64,000 bases of DNA from Arthrobacter sp. HY1533 (lineage in GTDB: Bacteria > Actinomycetota > Actinomycetes > Actinomycetales > Micrococcaceae), in NCBI RefSeq assembly GCF_027568515.1, contig NZ_JANKZF010000003.1, positions 186,001 through 250,000 of the forward strand. Direction: 5' to 3'. The position numbers and the translations under genes are program-made. The stretch's first letter is position 1; every line of letters begins with the position of its first letter. Below, in pieces: positions 35,535 to 42,661 of this stretch. The notes beneath the pieces are model-generated. The model was not told where the DNA came from. It was given only the letters and a program-made list of their open reading frames with translations, and searched no databases.

Positions 35535-36296
35535 TCACCGCGGCGGACTGTTGACAACATCACCCTGTGAGCTGAGGTCCGTGGTCGGGGTCACCTGAAG
35601 CGCCTCCAACACCTCTGAGTGCACGACGGCGTCGACCAGTTCCGCCGTTCCGCCCACCAGGGTGGAATCAAAGTCAATCTCCGTGGCCAGGCACCAGCTG
35701 CGGTCCGCCGGCCAGGCCAGGTTGGCCGTGGGTGAGCTGAAGCCCAGGCCGTCGTCGAACCAGGGCGGGTGGGCCAGTTCGCCCAGGCTCCCCCGGAAGA
35801 CCCAGTATTTGCGCAAGCCGTTGGCCACAGTGAGCGCCTGGCCGGGGCCACTCGGGATGCTGCCTGTGCCGGGCTCGAAGCCGCCCCAGCCCACCCACGC
35901 GGCCTGGAAGATGTCCTGGCCCTTGGCAGTGTGGCCGCCGAGGAGGGCCGCGAGCGCCAGCAACTGTGCCTCATCGAGTTCTCCCATATTGGGCCGCATG
36001 TACTCCGCGCCGCCGGCCCCGTCGAGGACGGCGTTTTGGTAGAGCTCGGTTTGCGCCAGCCGGTGGAACTGCGCCGCGGCGTGCAGCCGGGTCCCCTTGG
36101 CCCGGGCCACATCGGCCCAGCGGCGTTCCGGCCCTTGGCCGACGTCCATCCGGTGGAAGATGCGCGCGTAGGCCTGGAAATGGTCTGGAATCGTGGCGGC
36201 CACCGTGCCGAACGATTCATCCCACAGCTCCCTGGTGAGGCGTCGCCCCAGGGCATCGGCGATCCATTGGCCCTCTGCTGCGCTGGCGTCTTCCAT
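35535..36296 (-). CDS. Protein of unknown function
   Basis: 253 residues with no domain I recognise. No signal peptide or membrane helix. The sequence is mixed alpha/beta with tryptophan-rich parts (AAWVGWGGFEPG, KYWVFRGSLGELAHPPW, LAWPADRSWCLATEIDFD), similar in style to conserved actinobacterial proteins of unknown role. It starts at ATG 36296, preceded by a TAGGCT box at 6 bases. It ends 27 bases before the cysteine desulfurase start, so the two have separate promoters and are probably not one operon. Confidence 0.7.
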   Translation of the reverse strand: MEDASAAEGQWIADALGRRLTRELWDESFGTVAATIPDHFQAYARIFHRMDVGQGPERRWADVARAKGTRLHAAAQFHRLAQTELYQNAVLDGAGGAEYMRPNMGELDEAQLLALAALLGGHTAKGQDIFQAAWVGWGGFEPGTGSIPSGPGQALTVANGLRKYWVFRGSLGELAHPPWFDDGLGFSSPTANLAWPADRSWCLATEIDFDSTLVGGTAELVDAVVHSEVLEALQVTPTTDLSSQGDVVNSPPR

Positions 36297-36302
36297 GCCC
36301 GG

Positions 36303-36308
36303 AGCCTA
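36303..36308 (-). promoter_or_regulatory. Candidate leaderless -10 box (TAGGCT)
   Basis: TAGGCT on the minus strand lies 6 bases before the ATG at 36296 and no Shine-Dalgarno is present. Confidence 0.45.
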
Positions 36309-36373
36309 CCGCGGCCGCATCGGCAGGCACGCTGACCTTTTGGCCAATCCCTCCGCGGCGCGTTTGTCAATCC

Positions 36374-36403
36374 TTGTCAAGGCTACGGAACCGGTGGCAG
36401 GAT
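36374..36403 (+). promoter_or_regulatory. Possible promoter of the subtilase gene
   Basis: TTGTCA (36374-36379) and CAGGAT (36398-36403) with an 18-base spacer, 47 bases before the ATG at 36451. A second TTGTCAA lies 10 bases upstream as a direct repeat. Confidence 0.35.
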
Positions 36404-36450
36404 CAGCGTGTCCCACATCACCCTCACTCGATCCATGGGAGATCCATTAC

Positions 36451-37950
36451 ATGAAATCTGCATTCCTCTCGCGGTCAACCGCGGCCGCGTTTTGCGCCGT
36501 CGCCGTTGCCGCAACCACCATGCTGGGCAGCAGCGCCTCGGCAGCACCGAACAATTCACCCTCGACCCCTGTTGAATTTCCGGCAGCGGACGGCCAGCTC
36601 ATGAGCTACGTGGTCAACGCCAAGTCGAGCAACGGCAGCAAGACCCAGGATGTCCTGAAGGCCATCACGGCGGCCGGCGGCGTTGCCGTCCAACAATGGC
36701 CGGAAATCGGCGTGGTCATTGCCCAGTCCCAAAGTGCCGGCTTCCGCACCAACGTCCTCAAGCAGGGCAAGTCCTCCGTGGAATCCGTGGGCGCAACGCG
36801 CACAGCCACGGTGGCAGAGGGCACGCCGGAGGGCATTGCCACGCCATGGCAGCAGTCACCGCAAAGGCAGGCAAAGAAGCTGGCCAACGCCGATCTGCTC
36901 TACGGCGACGCCACCTTCGACGGAACGGCACTGGACCCCCGCGAGGCCGAAAAGTGGGATCAGGTGCAGATCAAGGCCGACCAGGCACACCAGCTCACTG
37001 ACGGTTCACGCGACGTCCTGGTGGGTGTCCTGGACAGCGGGATCGACCCCACGCACCCTGACCTCGTGGCCAACATCGATGTGGCCAACTCGGTCAACTG
37101 CGCCAACGCGGGTCGCCCCGACTCCTCCCCGGGCGGCTGGTTCCCCACAACGTCTTCGCACGGCACACACGTGGCCGGCATCATCGGTGCCGCACGCAAC
37201 GGCGTGGGCATTGTGGGCGTGGCCCCCAATGTGCGCATGGCCTCCGTCAAGGTGGTCAATGACGACGGCTACATCTACCCCGAATACGCCATTTGCGGTT
37301 TCATGTGGGCCGGCATGAAGGGCATGGACATCACCAACAACAGCTACTTCATTGACCCCGTGGAGTTCTGGTGTGACGACCAGCCCGACCAGGCCGCCGT
37401 GCGCACCGCTGTGGAACGGGCCGTGAAGTGGTCCACGGACAAGGGTGTGGTGCATGCGGCAGCCGCGGGCAACGCCTCCTACGACCTGGCCAACAAGACC
37501 ACCGACAGCGACAGCCCCAACGACGGCACCACGATTGAGCGTCAGATCGGCAACCAGTGCAAGGACATTCCCACCGAGCTGGACGGCGTGGTGACGGTGT
37601 CCTCCACCGACCAGGCCGGCAAGCTGTCCTCGTTCTCCAACCGCGGCCTGAACGTGATTGATGTGGCCGCCCCCGGCTCCCGCATCCTCTCCACCCTGCC
37701 GAACAACAAGTACGGTCTGCTCAGCGGCACTTCCATGGCATCCCCGCAGGTTGCCGGCGTCCTGGCACTGATGAAGTCCGAACACCCCGGCTGGAAGCCG
37801 AAGCAGCTGGTTTCCGAGCTGCGCAAGCAGGCCGAGGACCACCTCTGCATGCCGTCGGCAACCCCAACCGGCTCCGCATGCGTGGGCAAACTGCGCGACA
37901 ACAGCTACTACGGTGAGGGCATCGTCGACGCCCTGGCCGCCGTCATGTAA
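36451..37950 (+). CDS. Secreted S8 serine protease (subtilase)
   Basis: 499 residues from ATG 36451 (GGGAGA 8 bases before). A signal peptide ends near SSASA (about residue 31), followed by a propeptide of about 150 residues and the subtilisin domain with catalytic D195 (VGVLDSGIDPTHPDL), H237 (SHGTHVAGI) and S428 (SGTSMASPQVAG), plus the oxyanion-hole asparagine (AAAAGNASYD). Extracellular peptide digestion is likely; the peptide importer nearby fits but linkage is not shown. A strong stem-loop follows. Confidence 0.93.
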   Translation: MKSAFLSRSTAAAFCAVAVAATTMLGSSASAAPNNSPSTPVEFPAADGQLMSYVVNAKSSNGSKTQDVLKAITAAGGVAVQQWPEIGVVIAQSQSAGFRTNVLKQGKSSVESVGATRTATVAEGTPEGIATPWQQSPQRQAKKLANADLLYGDATFDGTALDPREAEKWDQVQIKADQAHQLTDGSRDVLVGVLDSGIDPTHPDLVANIDVANSVNCANAGRPDSSPGGWFPTTSSHGTHVAGIIGAARNGVGIVGVAPNVRMASVKVVNDDGYIYPEYAICGFMWAGMKGMDITNNSYFIDPVEFWCDDQPDQAAVRTAVERAVKWSTDKGVVHAAAAGNASYDLANKTTDSDSPNDGTTIERQIGNQCKDIPTELDGVVTVSSTDQAGKLSSFSNRGLNVIDVAAPGSRILSTLPNNKYGLLSGTSMASPQVAGVLALMKSEHPGWKPKQLVSELRKQAEDHLCMPSATPTGSACVGKLRDNSYYGEGIVDALAAVM

Positions 37951-38032: not shown

Positions 38033-38803
38033 CTACTGGGAGCCGGTTTCCGTTGCAGGCACCAACCGTGCGCAGCAGTGCGAAATTTCGGCGTCGGGGG
38101 CAAGGGCAAGCCCGCTTTCGGCACACCCCTCCAGTGCCCCTGTGAGCAGCGAGCCGTTCAGCGCGCAAATGACGCCCGTGTGGTCCCGGGACAGGCGGTG
38201 GAAGGGGCAGTTGGCCATGATGGTGCCGCCCCCGCCGTCGGGTTCGGGGCTGTACCCCGTGTTGGCTAGCAGCTGGTGGATGTCCCCGGCCTCGCTGCCC
38301 ATCCGCCGTCCCTCTTCAGAGGCGACCTGCGCAAGCGATTGCTCAATGCCGTCCCCCGTGTCAATGGAACGCTGGACCCCTGCGGCCAGCAGGCTTGCGG
38401 CGAGGTCGTAGTGCCGTGGCGGCACGGAGGCGCTGACCTCGCTGCGGGCCACGGTGTACAGCTTGGTGGGCCGCCCCGAGCCGGGTCCTGTCCGGTTGCC
38501 GATCTTGCGGAATTCCACCAGCAGGAGCCGTTCCTGAACCAGCCGGTCCAGGTGGGCCCGGATGGTGCTCTTGGGCAGGGCCAGGGCCTCGGCGCAGTCG
38601 TCGCGGCTGAGGGCCCCTGCTGCATCACGCACCAGCTCGAAGAGCTTCCGGCGGACCGGATCGCCCAGCGACGCCACGGCACGCAGGCGCTGGGATTCAT
38701 CCAGCGTGGGGTCCAGCACTGATTCCGGGCCGGCCCCGTGGAGGCGTTGCCCGTCGCCCGAAGGCCGGGAGGTGCCGTTGCGCACCGGTTCAGTCGTGGC
38801 CAT
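38033..38803 (-). CDS. Winged-helix regulator with C-terminal cysteine cluster (SufR-like)
   Basis: 256 residues from ATG 38803 (a longer start at 38863 is possible). The N-terminal half has an ArsR/DeoR-type winged helix (RLRAVASLGDPVRRKLFELV, SRDDCAEALALPKSTIRAHL). The C-terminal half carries four cysteines spaced as in iron-sulfur binding SufR-type regulators: NCPFH, VICAL, EGCAESG and SHCCARL. This suggests iron-sulfur or redox sensing. It is divergent from the folE operon; an inverted repeat lies between the two genes and is the natural operator. Ligand and metal binding are inferred. Confidence 0.8.
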   Translation of the reverse strand: MATTEPVRNGTSRPSGDGQRLHGAGPESVLDPTLDESQRLRAVASLGDPVRRKLFELVRDAAGALSRDDCAEALALPKSTIRAHLDRLVQERLLLVEFRKIGNRTGPGSGRPTKLYTVARSEVSASVPPRHYDLAASLLAAGVQRSIDTGDGIEQSLAQVASEEGRRMGSEAGDIHQLLANTGYSPEPDGGGGTIMANCPFHRLSRDHTGVICALNGSLLTGALEGCAESGLALAPDAEISHCCARLVPATETGSQ

Positions 38804-38876
38804 TGGCCTTGTGCTCTCTAGTACTTGCACTGCCCGCCGCGGGCAGTTTGCGGATTGCTTCATGCTACTTGACGCC

Positions 38877-38904
38877 TTGAGCGTGCGCTTCTAAAGTCAA
38901 TAAT
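38877..38904 (+). promoter_or_regulatory. Promoter of the folE pterin operon
   Basis: TTGAGC (38877-38882) and AATAAT (38899-38904) with a 16-base spacer. Both boxes match the consensus at four to five positions. The -10 box is flanked by the arms of the inverted repeat. Confidence 0.55.
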
Positions 38905-38917
38905 ACAAGCTTTAGAA
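38889..38917. promoter_or_regulatory. Perfect 8-base inverted repeat, probable operator of the folE operon
   Basis: TTCTAAAG (38889-38896) and CTTTAGAA (38910-38917), 13 bases apart, surrounding the -10 box and near the start region. A repressor dimer bound here would block transcription. The divergent winged-helix regulator is the obvious candidate to bind it. Confidence 0.65.
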
Positions 38918-38927
38918 AGGGTTGAAC

Positions 38928-39566
38928 ATGAGCCATGCCAACGCACCCCTGCCGGACCTGCTCGGCTTCGACCTCCCCGAACCGCTGGAACCCGGGTCCG
39001 TGGGACCCGCTCCCGACGGCTCCACCCCCGCCATTGACCTGCCCCGGGCCCAGGCCGCCATCGCCGAATTCCTGCGGGCGTTGGGGCGCGACGAAACGGA
39101 TCCCCACCTGCTGGACACCCCGCGACGGGTCGCGGCGGCCTATGCCGAAATGCTGACCCCGCGTGAGACGTCGTGGACCACCTTCCCCAACGACGACGGC
39201 TACCAGGGCCTGGTGCTGGTCAAGGACATCCCCTTCCACTCGCTGTGCCAGCACCACCTCCTGCCGTTCCGCGGCGTTGCCCATGTGGGGTACCTGCCCG
39301 GAACGCGCCTGTTTGGGCTCTCCAAGCTGGCCCGCGGCGTGGAACGCTTTGCCCGCGACCTCCAGGTGCAGGAACGCCTCACGCAGCAGGTCGCCGACTG
39401 GCTCGAGGGAACACTTGCACCGCGCGGGGTGGGCGTTGTCATGGAGGCCGAGCACATGTGCATGTCCCTGCGCGGTGTGCACACGGCCGGCACCATGACT
39501 CGAACCTCTGTCTTCACCGGGCTGCTGTCCGGGGATGGGCCCCTGCGCGGGCAGTTCCCCCTCTGA
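38928..39566 (+). CDS. folE: GTP cyclohydrolase I (FolE)
   Basis: 212 residues from ATG 38928 (GAAAGGG upstream). Converts GTP to 7,8-dihydroneopterin triphosphate, entry point of folate and other pterins. The zinc ligands are seen in FHSLCQHHLLPF and EHMCMSLRG, and the fold motifs in DTPRRVAAAYAEML and RVGYLPG-like GYLPGTRLFGLSKLAR. Most Actinobacteria have a folE next to ftsH, so this copy is probably a paralog. It is the first gene of the pterin operon. Confidence 0.94.
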   Translation: MSHANAPLPDLLGFDLPEPLEPGSVGPAPDGSTPAIDLPRAQAAIAEFLRALGRDETDPHLLDTPRRVAAAYAEMLTPRETSWTTFPNDDGYQGLVLVKDIPFHSLCQHHLLPFRGVAHVGYLPGTRLFGLSKLARGVERFARDLQVQERLTQQVADWLEGTLAPRGVGVVMEAEHMCMSLRGVHTAGTMTRTSVFTGLLSGDGPLRGQFPL

Positions 39567-39636
39567 CAGCGGCAGCGCAGGGGCGCATGATTAACCAAGG
39601 AAGCCACAGCTTGTCCCACGGAAAAGAGTTTGGACC

Positions 39637-40893
39637 ATGAGCCACTCACCCAGCACAGCAGCAAACGGCACGGACCCGGGCATGGTGATCATTGGCGGCG
39701 GGCTGGCCGCAGCCACGGCCGCCGAGACCCTGCGCCGCGAAGGCTGGCAGGGGCCGGTGACGGTGGTGGCCGGCGAGGATGAAACCCCGTACCAGCGCCC
39801 TCCCCTGTCCAAGGGGTTCCTGGCCGGCAAGGAGGGGGTCGATGCGCTGCTCCCGCTGCCGGAAAGCTGGTACCCGGAGCATCAGGTGTCCGTGCTGCGG
39901 GGCGTGCGCGCCGCGGCCCTGGACACCGCAGCCCACACCGTGTCCCTGGACAACGGCGAAACGCTTCCGTATGCCAAATTGCTCCTCGCAACAGGTGCCG
40001 CACCGCGCCGGATCCCCTTTCCCGGTGTCGACCTGGCCGGCGTGCACACCTTCCGGACCAAGGCCGACGCCGTTGCGCTGCGCGAGCAGCTGTCCGGCGG
40101 AGGCAAAAACGTGGTCATGGTGGGCTCGGGCTGGATCGGCATGGAGATTGCAGCCACGGCCACCGAGCTGGGCAACCAGGTGGCGCTGCTGGGGCTCGAG
40201 GAGGTCCCGCTCTCGGTGGCCATCGGCGCGGAGCTCGGCACCGTGTTCACCGCCCGGCACAGGGAGGCCGGCGTGCGCTTTGAGCTGCCGGCCAGTGCCG
40301 CCGAAATCCAGGGCAGCGGCGGAAACGTCACCTCGGTGCTGACCACAACGGGCGTTACCCTGCCGGCCGACATCGTCATCGTGGCCGTGGGCGTTGCCCC
40401 CAACACGGAGCTGGCCGCGGCCGCGGGCATCACGGTCAACAACGGCATCGAGGTGGACTCCTCGCTGCGGACCTCCGCGCCTGACGTGTTTGCCGCAGGC
40501 GATGTGGCCAACGCCCTGCACCCGTTCACCGGCACGCACCTGCGCTCCGAGCACTGGGCCAACGCCATCGCCGGGGGCAAGGTGGCGGCACTGTCCATGC
40601 TGGGGCAGGACGCAGTGCTCGATGACATCCCCTACTTCTACACCGACCAGTTTGACCTCGGCATGGAGTATTCCGGCTTCGGCACACTCACCGGGGACGC
40701 GGAGCTTGTGGTCCGCGGCAGCCTGGAAACGCGCGAATTCATCGCCTTCTGGGTGCGCGGGGGCCGGGTGGTGGCGGGCATGAACGTCAACACCTGGGAC
40801 GTGCAGGAGGCCATCAAGGGCCTGATTTCCTCGCGACGCACTGTAGACACGGCACGGCTGGCTGACCCGCAAACCCCGCTTGAGGATATTTGA
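39637..40893 (+). CDS. FAD-dependent NAD(P)-ferredoxin reductase-like oxidoreductase
   Basis: 418 residues. Two Rossmann folds: FAD site VIIGGGLAAATAAETLRREG (from about residue 17) and NAD(P) site VVMVGSGWIGMEIAA (about residue 158), with the FAD-binding GDVANALHPF motif near the end and a C-terminal reductase domain. Typical relatives pass electrons from NAD(P)H to a ferredoxin or rubredoxin; no redox partner gene is visible here. It is 70 bases after folE and its TGA overlaps the next ATG by one base. Confidence 0.88.
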   Translation: MSHSPSTAANGTDPGMVIIGGGLAAATAAETLRREGWQGPVTVVAGEDETPYQRPPLSKGFLAGKEGVDALLPLPESWYPEHQVSVLRGVRAAALDTAAHTVSLDNGETLPYAKLLLATGAAPRRIPFPGVDLAGVHTFRTKADAVALREQLSGGGKNVVMVGSGWIGMEIAATATELGNQVALLGLEEVPLSVAIGAELGTVFTARHREAGVRFELPASAAEIQGSGGNVTSVLTTTGVTLPADIVIVAVGVAPNTELAAAAGITVNNGIEVDSSLRTSAPDVFAAGDVANALHPFTGTHLRSEHWANAIAGGKVAALSMLGQDAVLDDIPYFYTDQFDLGMEYSGFGTLTGDAELVVRGSLETREFIAFWVRGGRVVAGMNVNTWDVQEAIKGLISSRRTVDTARLADPQTPLEDI

Positions 40894-41909
40894 TGGAAGG
40901 CATGAGGACTTCCGCAGTTTCCCAATCCGTGGCCACCGCCGCCCCGTTCTTCACCCCGCCCCTGCTCCACCCGGTCCACGACTTTGGCCCGCGCACCATC
41001 GACTTCAGCCGCCAGGTGGCGCTCATGGCCATCATCAACCGCACCCCGGATTCCTTTTACGACGGCGGCGCCACCTTTGCACTCGATGCGGCCGTTGCCG
41101 CTTCCCTTGCGGCCGTGGACGACGGCGCCGACTGGGTGGACATTGGCGGTGTCCCGTTCGCCCCGGGCCCTGCGCTGGGCGCCGATGAGGAAGCCGAGCG
41201 GGTGGTGCCGGTAATCGCCGCCGTGGCCGCGGCCAGCGACGCCATCATTTCCGTTGACACGTTCCTGCCGGAGGTGGCGGCCGCCAGCATTGCCGCGGGT
41301 GCCCACGTCATCAACGACACCACGGGGCTCTCCAACCCCGAATTGGCCCAGGTGGTGGCCGAATCCGGCGCACACCTGGTCATCACGCATTCCCTTGCCA
41401 AGCCGCGCACCGTGTACCCCCGGCCGCAGTATGGCGACGTGGTGGCCGAGGTGGCGGCGTTCCTGGCGGCAAAGGTGGAACTGGCCATCTCCCTGGGCGT
41501 CCCGGAGGAGAAGATCATCATCGACCCCGGCCACGACCTGAACAAGAACACGCTGCACACGCTGGAGATCACGCGCCGCTTCAACGAGATTGCGGCCCTG
41601 GGCCTTCCGGCACTTGCAGCCGTGTCCAACAAGGACTTCATCGGCGAGACCCTGGACCGGGCCAAGCAGGAACGCCTGTCGGGGTCGCTGGCCTCGGCCA
41701 CCATTTGCATGCTGGGAGGGGCCCGCATCCTGCGCATGCACAACGTTGCGGCCTCGGCCGACGCCATCCGCATGACCGAGGCCGTGCTGGGCTGGCGCGA
41801 ACCTGCCTACCAGCTGCACAACATGGGCGACGTCAACCGGCCGGCCCATCCGGGACGCCCCGGCGACGCGGCGGCGACGTCCACAGCGGGGCGGGGTGCC
41901 ACGCCGTGA
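40893..41909 (+). CDS. folP2: FolP2-type dihydropteroate synthase-like protein
   Basis: 338 residues. TIM-barrel of the DHPS family with the NRTPDSFYDGGATF loop (49-62), DIGG, INDTTG, DPGHDLNKNTLH and SNKDFIGETL motifs, the last two as in mycobacterial FolP2 (Rv1207). The normal DHPS loop STRPG after DIGG is replaced by VPFAPG (residues 87-92), so the substrate or sulfonamide-binding loop is altered; M. tuberculosis FolP2 has been reported not to act as a DHPS. GAGG lies before the ATG. Translation is coupled to both neighbours (TGATG before, GTGA after). It likely handles another pterin reaction. Confidence 0.85.
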   Translation: MEGMRTSAVSQSVATAAPFFTPPLLHPVHDFGPRTIDFSRQVALMAIINRTPDSFYDGGATFALDAAVAASLAAVDDGADWVDIGGVPFAPGPALGADEEAERVVPVIAAVAAASDAIISVDTFLPEVAAASIAAGAHVINDTTGLSNPELAQVVAESGAHLVITHSLAKPRTVYPRPQYGDVVAEVAAFLAAKVELAISLGVPEEKIIIDPGHDLNKNTLHTLEITRRFNEIAALGLPALAAVSNKDFIGETLDRAKQERLSGSLASATICMLGGARILRMHNVAASADAIRMTEAVLGWREPAYQLHNMGDVNRPAHPGRPGDAAATSTAGRGATP

Positions 41910-42661
41910 TCGAGCGCCTGTTCCCCAACCCGGCGCCACTGCCCCACGGGGCCCTCGAGGATGAGATGCGCGCGGCCCCGGCGTCCCGGCCGCGCAGCAA
42001 TGCACCATGGCTCAGCTTCAACTTTGTGGCCAGCATCGACGGCGCCGCCACCGTGGACGGCCGTTCGGGCCAGTTGGGCAACGCCTGGGACCAGAGGCTG
42101 TTCATGCTGCTGCGCCACACGGCCGACGTCATCGTGGTGGGGGCCCAGACCATCCGCGCCGAAGGCTACGGCGGGGAGCTCCTGGGTGCAGAGGCGCAGC
42201 AGTGGCGCAAGGACAACTGGCTGTCCGCCCACCCGCCGCTGGCCATTGTCTCCGGCTCCCTCAACCTGGACCCGGACATGGCGGTCTTTGCCCAGGCACC
42301 CGTGCGGCCGCTGGTGCTGACGCTGGAAACGGCACCGGCGCAGCGGCGCGAGGCACTGGCGGAAGTGGCCGACGTCGTCAATGTGGGCGTGGCATCCCTG
42401 GACGTGGAGCGGACCATGGCCGAGCTGGCCTCCCGCGGCTTCAGGAACATCCACTCCGAGGGCGGCCCCACGCTGCTGGGCACCTTTGCGGCGGCCGGCC
42501 GGGTCGATGAACTGTCGCTGACGGTTTCACCGCTGCTGGTGGGCGGTCCGGCCAGGCGGATCGCGCACGGGCCCACGGACGCATCGCAGGGCATGGTCCT
42601 GGACCGCGTGCTGAAGGCCGATTCAATGTTGTTCCTGCGCTACGTGCGCCCCACGCACTGA
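41906..42661 (+). CDS. RibD-like pyrimidine/pterin reductase family protein (Rv2671-type)
   Basis: 251 residues starting at GTG that overlaps the folP2 stop by 4 bases. It has the RibD C-terminal reductase fold: NFVASIDGAATVDGRSG, TADVIVVGAQTIRAEGYG, FRNIHSEGGPTLLGTF and LSLTVSPLLVGG. NADPH-dependent family members reduce riboflavin precursors; the mycobacterial relative Rv2671 has been reported to substitute for dihydrofolate reductase. In this operon a dihydropterin reductase role is likely, but the substrate is inferred. The next gene, a lipoprotein, is convergent. Confidence 0.85.
   Translation: MIERLFPNPAPLPHGALEDEMRAAPASRPRSNAPWLSFNFVASIDGAATVDGRSGQLGNAWDQRLFMLLRHTADVIVVGAQTIRAEGYGGELLGAEAQQWRKDNWLSAHPPLAIVSGSLNLDPDMAVFAQAPVRPLVLTLETAPAQRREALAEVADVVNVGVASLDVERTMAELASRGFRNIHSEGGPTLLGTFAAAGRVDELSLTVSPLLVGGPARRIAHGPTDASQGMVLDRVLKADSMLFLRYVRPTH

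Follow-up and report, generated by a model that had tools for sequence, protein, structure and literature searches.

The second dihydropteroate synthase (DHPS) of high-GC Gram-positive bacteria, FolP2, is known as an orphan enzyme. A 2007 survey assigned this second DHPS probably to another pathway (PMC1971073), the same paper cites work from 2000 in which Mycobacterium leprae folP2 failed to complement an Escherichia coli folP mutant, and the Mycobacterium tuberculosis FolP2 family is reported or predicted to be inactive as a DHPS (PMC1971073, PMC7809127). Rv2671, for its part, has been described as a second dihydrofolate reductase (DHFR) (PMC8262987). Here, we analyze a 64,000-nucleotide stretch of Arthrobacter sp. 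HY1533 (contig NZ_JANKZF010000003.1, positions 186,001 to 250,000; below, the window), in which a plus-strand operon runs in the order folE2, FAD oxidoreductase gene, folP2, and RibD_C reductase gene, behind a divergent, cysteine-rich regulator. The operon duplicates three folate steps (GTP cyclohydrolase I, a DHPS-like step, and a DHFR-like step) alongside the normal genes, and we put the chances at about even that it specifies a side branch of pterin metabolism that is inducible, runs parallel to folate synthesis, and has a product other than dihydropteroate. The pairing of FolP2 with an Rv2671-type reductase, FolE, and a cysteine-rich regulator is something that we have not seen in print. 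Our literature search, which did not reach most subscription papers, found no paper naming both Rv1207 and Rv2671 and, judging by titles and abstract openings, no description of this operon.

The central gene, folP2 (40893..41909, plus strand; PF00809, 1e-62), encodes a diverged DHPS-like protein of 338 amino acids. An initial annotation of this DNA described it as lacking the STRPG loop of DHPS, and this was confirmed by comparison with the canonical FolP of the same genome, which reads GGESTRPG where FolP2 reads GGVPFAPG. To place this change among relatives, we scanned genomes with 17 aligned FolP2 sequences and took the best 80 of 588 confirmed candidates as a set of named loci; because these are the best candidates, proportions among them are not population frequencies. 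Residue numbers come from alignment to 5umg and are treated as those of E. coli. Throughout the 80 loci, FolP2 retains N22, D56, N115, D185, K192, K221, R255, and H257; D96 is kept in 77, with a conservative E in the other 3. In the same 80 loci, T62 is replaced by F, R63 by A (54), S (14), G (10), or K (2), R220 by N, S222 by D, and F190, a residue turned toward the pterin in DHPS, by L. The canonical FolP of the genome retains both T62 and R63 and has R222. In the product complex of a Burkholderia DHPS, the pterin is bound by the counterparts of N115, D185, D96, and K221, the T62 equivalent touches the linking nitrogen and the S222 equivalent binds the carboxylate of p-aminobenzoate (pABA) (PMC3098144). 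The pattern suggests that FolP2 has lost its pABA pocket and kept its pterin site, as would suit a different folate-like product. The acidic D222, which stands where DHPS has Ser or Arg, further suggests a nucleophile lacking the carboxylate of pABA.

In a 48-row tree whose root is not fixed, 46 FolP2 rows were split from 2 rows of true DHPS with support of 100/100. The best solved relative of the FolP2 alignment was 2vp8, annotated as dihydropteroate synthase 2 (5e-83).

The gene most closely tied to folP2 is the one that follows it, a reductase gene of the PRK14059/Rv2671 family with a GTG start (41906..42661, plus strand; 251 amino acids; PF01872, 8e-33). Adjacent folP2 and reductase genes on one strand were found in 64/80 loci, with differing flanks. 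The initial annotation had posited a four-gene pathway that might recur in other Actinobacteria. Recurrence was borne out, in that all four genes occur together in 16/80 loci (13 with the regulator and 3 without) and at least the folP2-reductase pair in the 64. A fixed pathway of four genes was not, since neither folE2 nor the FAD gene is a constant member: the remaining pairs comprised FAD-folP2-reductase (7/80), a more distant folE with folP2-reductase (6/80), regulator-folE-folP2-reductase (1/80), and folP2-reductase alone (34/80). The conserved core, folP2 plus the reductase, thus falls short of four genes. Two clustering passes and an inspection of neighbors in a sample of 16 loci did not reveal a sixth gene conserved in the operon.

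The two core genes also tend to occur in the same genomes. Among 149 genomes of the order, in raw counts that ignore kinship among genomes, a reductase of the family was detected at E up to 1e-20 in 30/31 genomes with FolP2 (E up to 1e-90) compared to 43/118 others, so that 73 genomes had the reductase in total; a stricter single-protein search gave 21/31 and 14/118. FolP2 was found in 19 of the 20 genomes whose reductase is of the operon type (E below about 1e-88), G113 alone lacking it. Across 394 genomes of the class, at a FolP2 threshold that may admit some FolP1, 264 had both genes and 59 had neither.

The best solved relative of the reductase was Rv2671 itself (4xrb, 2.7e-48). The score of the window reductase exceeded the cut-off of NF010663 (191.7 against 184) and fell below those of NF010664 (193.9 against 226) and NF010665 (194.2 against 274). 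Residues N44, D67, and E193 were invariant in 30 aligned operon-linked reductases and in all operon-type rows of a reductase tree. By our own reading, a numbering shift of 12 makes them the counterparts of ASN32, ASP55, and GLU181, which are ligand contacts of Rv2671 in simulations with antifolates (PMC10530724). In the same tree, 20 rows of stand-alone homologues formed their own group (95/95) with no operon-type row inside.

The two kinds of reductase differ in how they relate to FolA. Twenty-six of the 149 genomes were FolA negative (six of them assigned by elimination; the positive calls for G025 and G042 rest on weak matches); 22 of the 26 carry some Rv2671/PRK14059-family reductase, 21 of which were counted as carrying non-operon reductases only. 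Because non-operon reductases were thus present in 21/26 FolA-negative compared to 32/123 FolA-positive genomes, stand-alone members of the family may replace FolA and are candidate substitute DHFRs. For the operon-type reductase we rejected such a role, since 19 of the 20 genomes that have it also have FolA; the exception, G142, has a second reductase. No folate or thymidylate neighbor of the stand-alone reductases was recognized by eye in the loci inspected, where one neighbor was run against Pfam. One stand-alone reductase (L035) adjoins a flavin-reductase-like gene (PF01613), and a second (L037) looks similar by eye. Several reductases in one genus (f6 g12; L033, L034, L035, L037, L200, L201, L203, and L204) have V or H at the position of Rv2671 Asn44.

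The genome also keeps its ordinary folate genes. The initial annotation had proposed looking for a second folE/folP/folB/folK set next to ftsH, the lack of any other folE or folP being what would have counted against it. An ftsH-folE-folP-folB-folK cluster is present elsewhere in the genome, which has two folE and two folP genes in total, along with a FolA-type DHFR. The same holds more widely for FolP: of 37 genomes examined for Pterin_bind, 36 have FolP2, and 35 of these 36 also have a separate canonical FolP, the lone exception (G030) being an 88% complete genome. A second FolE is rarer, standing beside FolP2 only in G000, G013, and G063 of the 37 and elsewhere in G023, with none in G030. 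Since so few FolP2 genomes have a second FolE, the ordinary FolE must feed the branch in most of them, if it is fed at all.

The first two genes of the operon complete its enzyme set. The four genes that the initial annotation had placed on the plus strand were all found there, and the tight coupling that it described holds for two of their three junctions. The FAD gene stop and the folP2 ATG overlap by 1 base in a TGATG, and the reductase GTG start overlaps the folP2 stop in a GTGA at 41906-41909; folE2 and the FAD gene are separated by 70 bases, with no overlap. The folE2 gene (38928..39566, plus strand; PF01227, 5e-57) encodes a second GTP cyclohydrolase I of 212 amino acids that scores above the cut-offs of NF006826 and NF006825 and narrowly misses the equivalog TIGR00063. 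Across 23 aligned FolE proteins, C107, H109, H110, H176, and C178 were invariant, as expected of a GTP cyclohydrolase I; we take these to be the active-site Cys/His set of that enzyme. The FolE proteins next to folP2 in Curtobacterium, Frigoribacterium, and Glaciihabitans formed a second, distinct group (100/99), with a FolE gene of this kind directly preceding folP2-reductase in six loci (L092, L099, L101, L112, L113, and L065). The operon FolE group parted from the remaining FolE proteins with support of 94/89, below the firm threshold. The existence of two such groups suggests that FolE was recruited twice to the pair.

The FAD/NAD(P)H oxidoreductase (39637..40893, plus strand; 418 amino acids; PF07992 and PF14759) is of the ferredoxin (putidaredoxin) reductase type, with 3lxd (9e-75) and putidaredoxin reductase 1q1r (4e-62) as its best solved relatives. 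The initial annotation cast it as the electron donor of the pathway. That role can be given only as a possibility: the gene stands beside 23/64 folP2-reductase pairs and is missing beside the other 41, and the operon contains no ferredoxin gene.

That the operon may be inducible is suggested by its regulatory region. The interval originally assigned to the operon begins at the start codon (38803) of a divergent ArsR/SmtB-like regulator of 256 amino acids (38033..38803, minus strand), and this regulator belongs with the operon. It scores slightly above the Pfam cut-off of HTH_5 and slightly below that of HTH_20; the true solved-structure matches of its ArsR-like head were ArsR/SmtB-type winged helices, and the remainder were weak. 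The C-terminal part contains C199, C213, C227, C243, and C244 plus an NCPFH motif. In an alignment of 15 regulator rows, C199, C213, and NCPFH were invariant, and C243 and C244 were present in at least 90%. The regulator thus has putative cluster cysteines at a spacing matching that of SufR/ArnR-type Fe-S regulators. The [4Fe-4S] regulator ArnR of corynebacteria shares with it a winged-helix N terminus, a 14/30 cysteine spacing (C179/193/223 in ArnR, C199/213/243 here) (PMC12343034), and a conserved His near the cysteines. The likeness noted here is one of spacing and fold, and ArnR differs in having nar and hmp genes as its targets (PMC12343034). We infer that the regulator is a [4Fe-4S] or other metal-bound sensor, and we predict that it acts as a repressor.

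Between regulator and folE2, a sequence match identified a sigma70-like promoter for the operon, TTGACG-N17-TAAAGT (38869..38897, plus strand). The pattern TTGAC(A/G)-N17 or 18-TA...T recurred between regulator and folE in 15/15 loci, comprising the window and each of the 14 further loci with a regulator that were examined. A palindrome scan also found a perfect palindrome, TTCTAAAG-N13-CTTTAGAA (38889..38917, plus strand), which overlaps the -10 element. No second site in the window matched it when as many as 3 mismatches were allowed, and it was found in 0 of 100 shuffles. An 8-13-8 palindrome over the -10 element with at most 1 mismatch occurred in 6/15 regulator-folE intergenic regions (the window, L044, L045, L047, L064, and L074) and not in 9/14 of the other regulator-bearing loci examined. 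The palindrome is likely the operator.

Taken together, these features would fit the following scheme. FolE2 would add dihydroneopterin triphosphate, which FolB and FolK, supplied by the housekeeping cluster as the operon has no copy of either, would convert into hydroxymethyl-dihydropterin pyrophosphate (DHPPP). On FolP2, a nucleophile other than pABA would displace the pyrophosphate of DHPPP, and the reductase would use NADPH to convert the resulting 7,8-dihydropterin adduct into its tetrahydro counterpart; the FAD protein would be an optional redox helper. The regulator would keep the promoter repressed for as long as the cluster or metal held by its cysteines stayed in place and unaltered. 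We infer every chemical step here, as well as the identity of the nucleophile and the ligand of the regulator.

Given that folate steps are duplicated and that FolP2 has lost its pABA side and kept its pterin site, the operon is best read as leading to a pterin that is not dihydropteroate. The initial annotation had gone further on some points, proposing a four-gene branch from GTP to a non-folate reduced pterin with the FAD enzyme as donor. The branch itself stands on the three duplicated steps and the altered pABA residues, and the fixed four-gene unit and the FAD donor are not supported in the form proposed. As to its suggestion that the operon may make an undescribed pterin cofactor, the sequence does not reveal a product, a substrate, or a cofactor role. 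It is possible, though in our view less likely than not, that Actinomycetes possess an undescribed tetrahydropterin coenzyme, made via FolP2 and an Rv2671-type reductase, that is folate-like and carries another group in place of p-aminobenzoate.

A number of observations weigh against a product other than dihydropteroate. FolP2 of the window scores 249.9 bits on TIGR01496, the equivalog model of DHPS, whose cut-off is 162.6, and therefore routine annotation names it as a DHPS; it has the equivalog match and the pterin and pyrophosphate residues of that enzyme and lacks the pABA side, having neither T62 and R63 nor a Ser or Arg at position 222. Position 222 itself varies between Ser and Arg in true DHPS (PMC3098144). 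Loss of folP2 in mycobacteria is reported to increase sensitivity to sulfamethoxazole (PMC7809127), which might indicate a function within folate metabolism proper. The link between the core genes is also incomplete: folP2 lacks an adjacent same-strand reductase in 15/80 loci (1 further locus ends at a contig end), and at class level 46 genomes had FolP2 without the reductase and 25 the reductase without FolP2, figures that, like all our co-occurrence counts, ignore the relatedness of the genomes. In one genome (G113; locus L017), an operon-type reductase lies near a desulfurase-like neighbor and no FolP2 was found. Finally, no recurring gene that could make or attach another nucleophile was recognized beside the pair among the neighbors that were annotated, which were not all of them.

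The main rival to the side branch, in our judgment an unlikely one, is that the operon is a stress-inducible back-up of ordinary folate synthesis, whose spare GTP cyclohydrolase, DHPS, and DHFR would go on yielding tetrahydrofolate if inhibition or damage put the standard enzymes out of action. The evidence divides. The match of FolP2 to TIGR01496 would fit a spare DHPS, but its pABA-side residues T62, R63, and S222 are replaced in 80/80 loci, and the increased sulfa sensitivity of mycobacterial folP2 deletions (PMC7809127) has to be set against the reported inability of M. leprae folP2 to complement the E. coli mutant (PMC1971073). The description of Rv2671 as a second DHFR (PMC8262987) and the excess of non-operon reductases in FolA-negative genomes (21/26 versus 32/123) would likewise favor a spare DHFR, yet genomes with the operon-type reductase are FolA positive in 19 cases of 20.

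We consider it rather improbable that the operon serves detoxification or salvage, with FolP2 tagging foreign, carboxylate-free arylamines with DHPPP or handling damaged pterins while the reductase recycles oxidized pterins. The new acidic residue at 222, which would disfavor a carboxylate, and the sulfa sensitivity of folP2 mutants (PMC7809127) are consistent with this, as is a regulator of a type that may sense stress. In Actinoplanes-like loci (L082, L085, L086, L088, and L097), folP2 stands alone and is followed by a TetR-type regulator (5/80) and an MFS-type transporter (4/80), which would suit such a function, but in other groups no MFS transporter stands next to the folP2-reductase pair. 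The FolP2 family is, moreover, present in 310/394 class genomes at the threshold that may admit some FolP1, unlike a detoxification gene.

We give little credence to FolP2 being a noncatalytic or regulatory pterin-binding protein, linked to the reductase by coregulation only. The reported or predicted inactivity of mycobacterial FolP2 as a DHPS (PMC1971073, PMC7809127) agrees with that view, but the invariance of N22, K221, R255, and H257 in the 80 loci goes beyond the need of a pure binder.

FolE and a dihydropterin reductase constitute the minimal route to tetrahydropterin cofactors, and for that reason we tried and rejected a simple cofactor for aromatic amino acid hydroxylases of the phenylalanine hydroxylase type, with FolP2 noncatalytic, as very improbable: Biopterin_H occurs in only 5/149 genomes of the order (two of which, G091 and G122, have FolP2, with G066 just short of the threshold at 1.6e-90) and is absent from the genome of the window, NO synthase and other pterin users not having been searched for, and FolP2 keeps its pyrophosphate and pterin residues.

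The surroundings of the pair vary by family. With one representative of each gene tested by Pfam, Micrococcaceae flanks contain an mnmA-like gene (14/80) and a desulfurase-like class-V aminotransferase (11/80), and flanks that are mostly from Microbacteriaceae contain a response regulator (22/80) and a histidine kinase (22/80). In two loci (L069 and L090), a nearby reductase lies on the opposite strand. The folE of L108 and the reductase of L109 each match in two pieces, which may reflect a frameshift or a sequencing error, and contigs labeled as Acidobacteria and as a Burkholderiales metagenome-assembled genome (L050 and L100) carry an actinobacterial-looking folP2-reductase pair and are possibly misbinned. 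In the window, a subtilase-family serine protease (36193-37950) lies upstream of the regulator; its best NCBIfam model, type VII secretion mycosin, scored below cut-off.

With this operon, the orphan second DHPS gains a partner, an Rv2671-type reductase whose family has so far been treated as a spare DHFR, and both become linked to GTP cyclohydrolase I, so that the open question of the second DHPS becomes directly testable in actinobacteria. If the product is not dihydropteroate, a pterin coenzyme would be new to science, and the way antifolates act in these bacteria would have to be reconsidered. An undescribed coenzyme, if real, would account for a second DHPS that has long lacked an explanation, and would add a folate-like carrier that is neither tetrahydrofolate nor tetrahydromethanopterin.

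Among described systems, mycobacterial FolP2 (Rv1207, 2vp8) is alike in having lost T62 and R63 and in sharing N220, D222, H188, and D189 with the window type (80/80 loci, H188 in 79). It differs in forming a separate clade of 7 rows (100/100) that excludes the operon-type FolP2 of the window in the 48-row tree, root not fixed, and in having A62 and F190 where the window protein has F62 and L190. The folP2 genes of high-GC Gram-positive bacteria cluster with cell wall genes according to the 2007 survey (PMC1971073), whereas that of the window adjoins a reductase. The plasmid-borne Sul1-Sul3 enzymes are likewise diverged DHPSs with a remodeled pABA-binding region, but they retain DHPS-like catalysis (PMC10328974), and FolP2 of the window scores far below the Sul cut-offs. 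Rv2671 is the closest solved relative of the window reductase, with N44, D67, and E193 kept, but stands on a long branch, in neither the operon-type nor the stand-alone group. The canonical ftsH-folE-folP-folB-folK operon uses the same gene families for the FolE and DHPS-like steps; the operon of the window is without folB and folK and adds the reductase, the FAD enzyme, and its own regulator. In tetrahydromethanopterin synthesis, beta-ribofuranosylaminobenzene 5'-phosphate (RFAP) is joined to the pterin. Methanopterin genes were not recognized among the neighbors looked at, no search having been aimed at them. RFAP is made from pABA and phosphoribosyl pyrophosphate (PMC6787355), and the proposed branch would resemble the RFAP route in principle, in that the pterin finally carries an arylamine that is not pABA.

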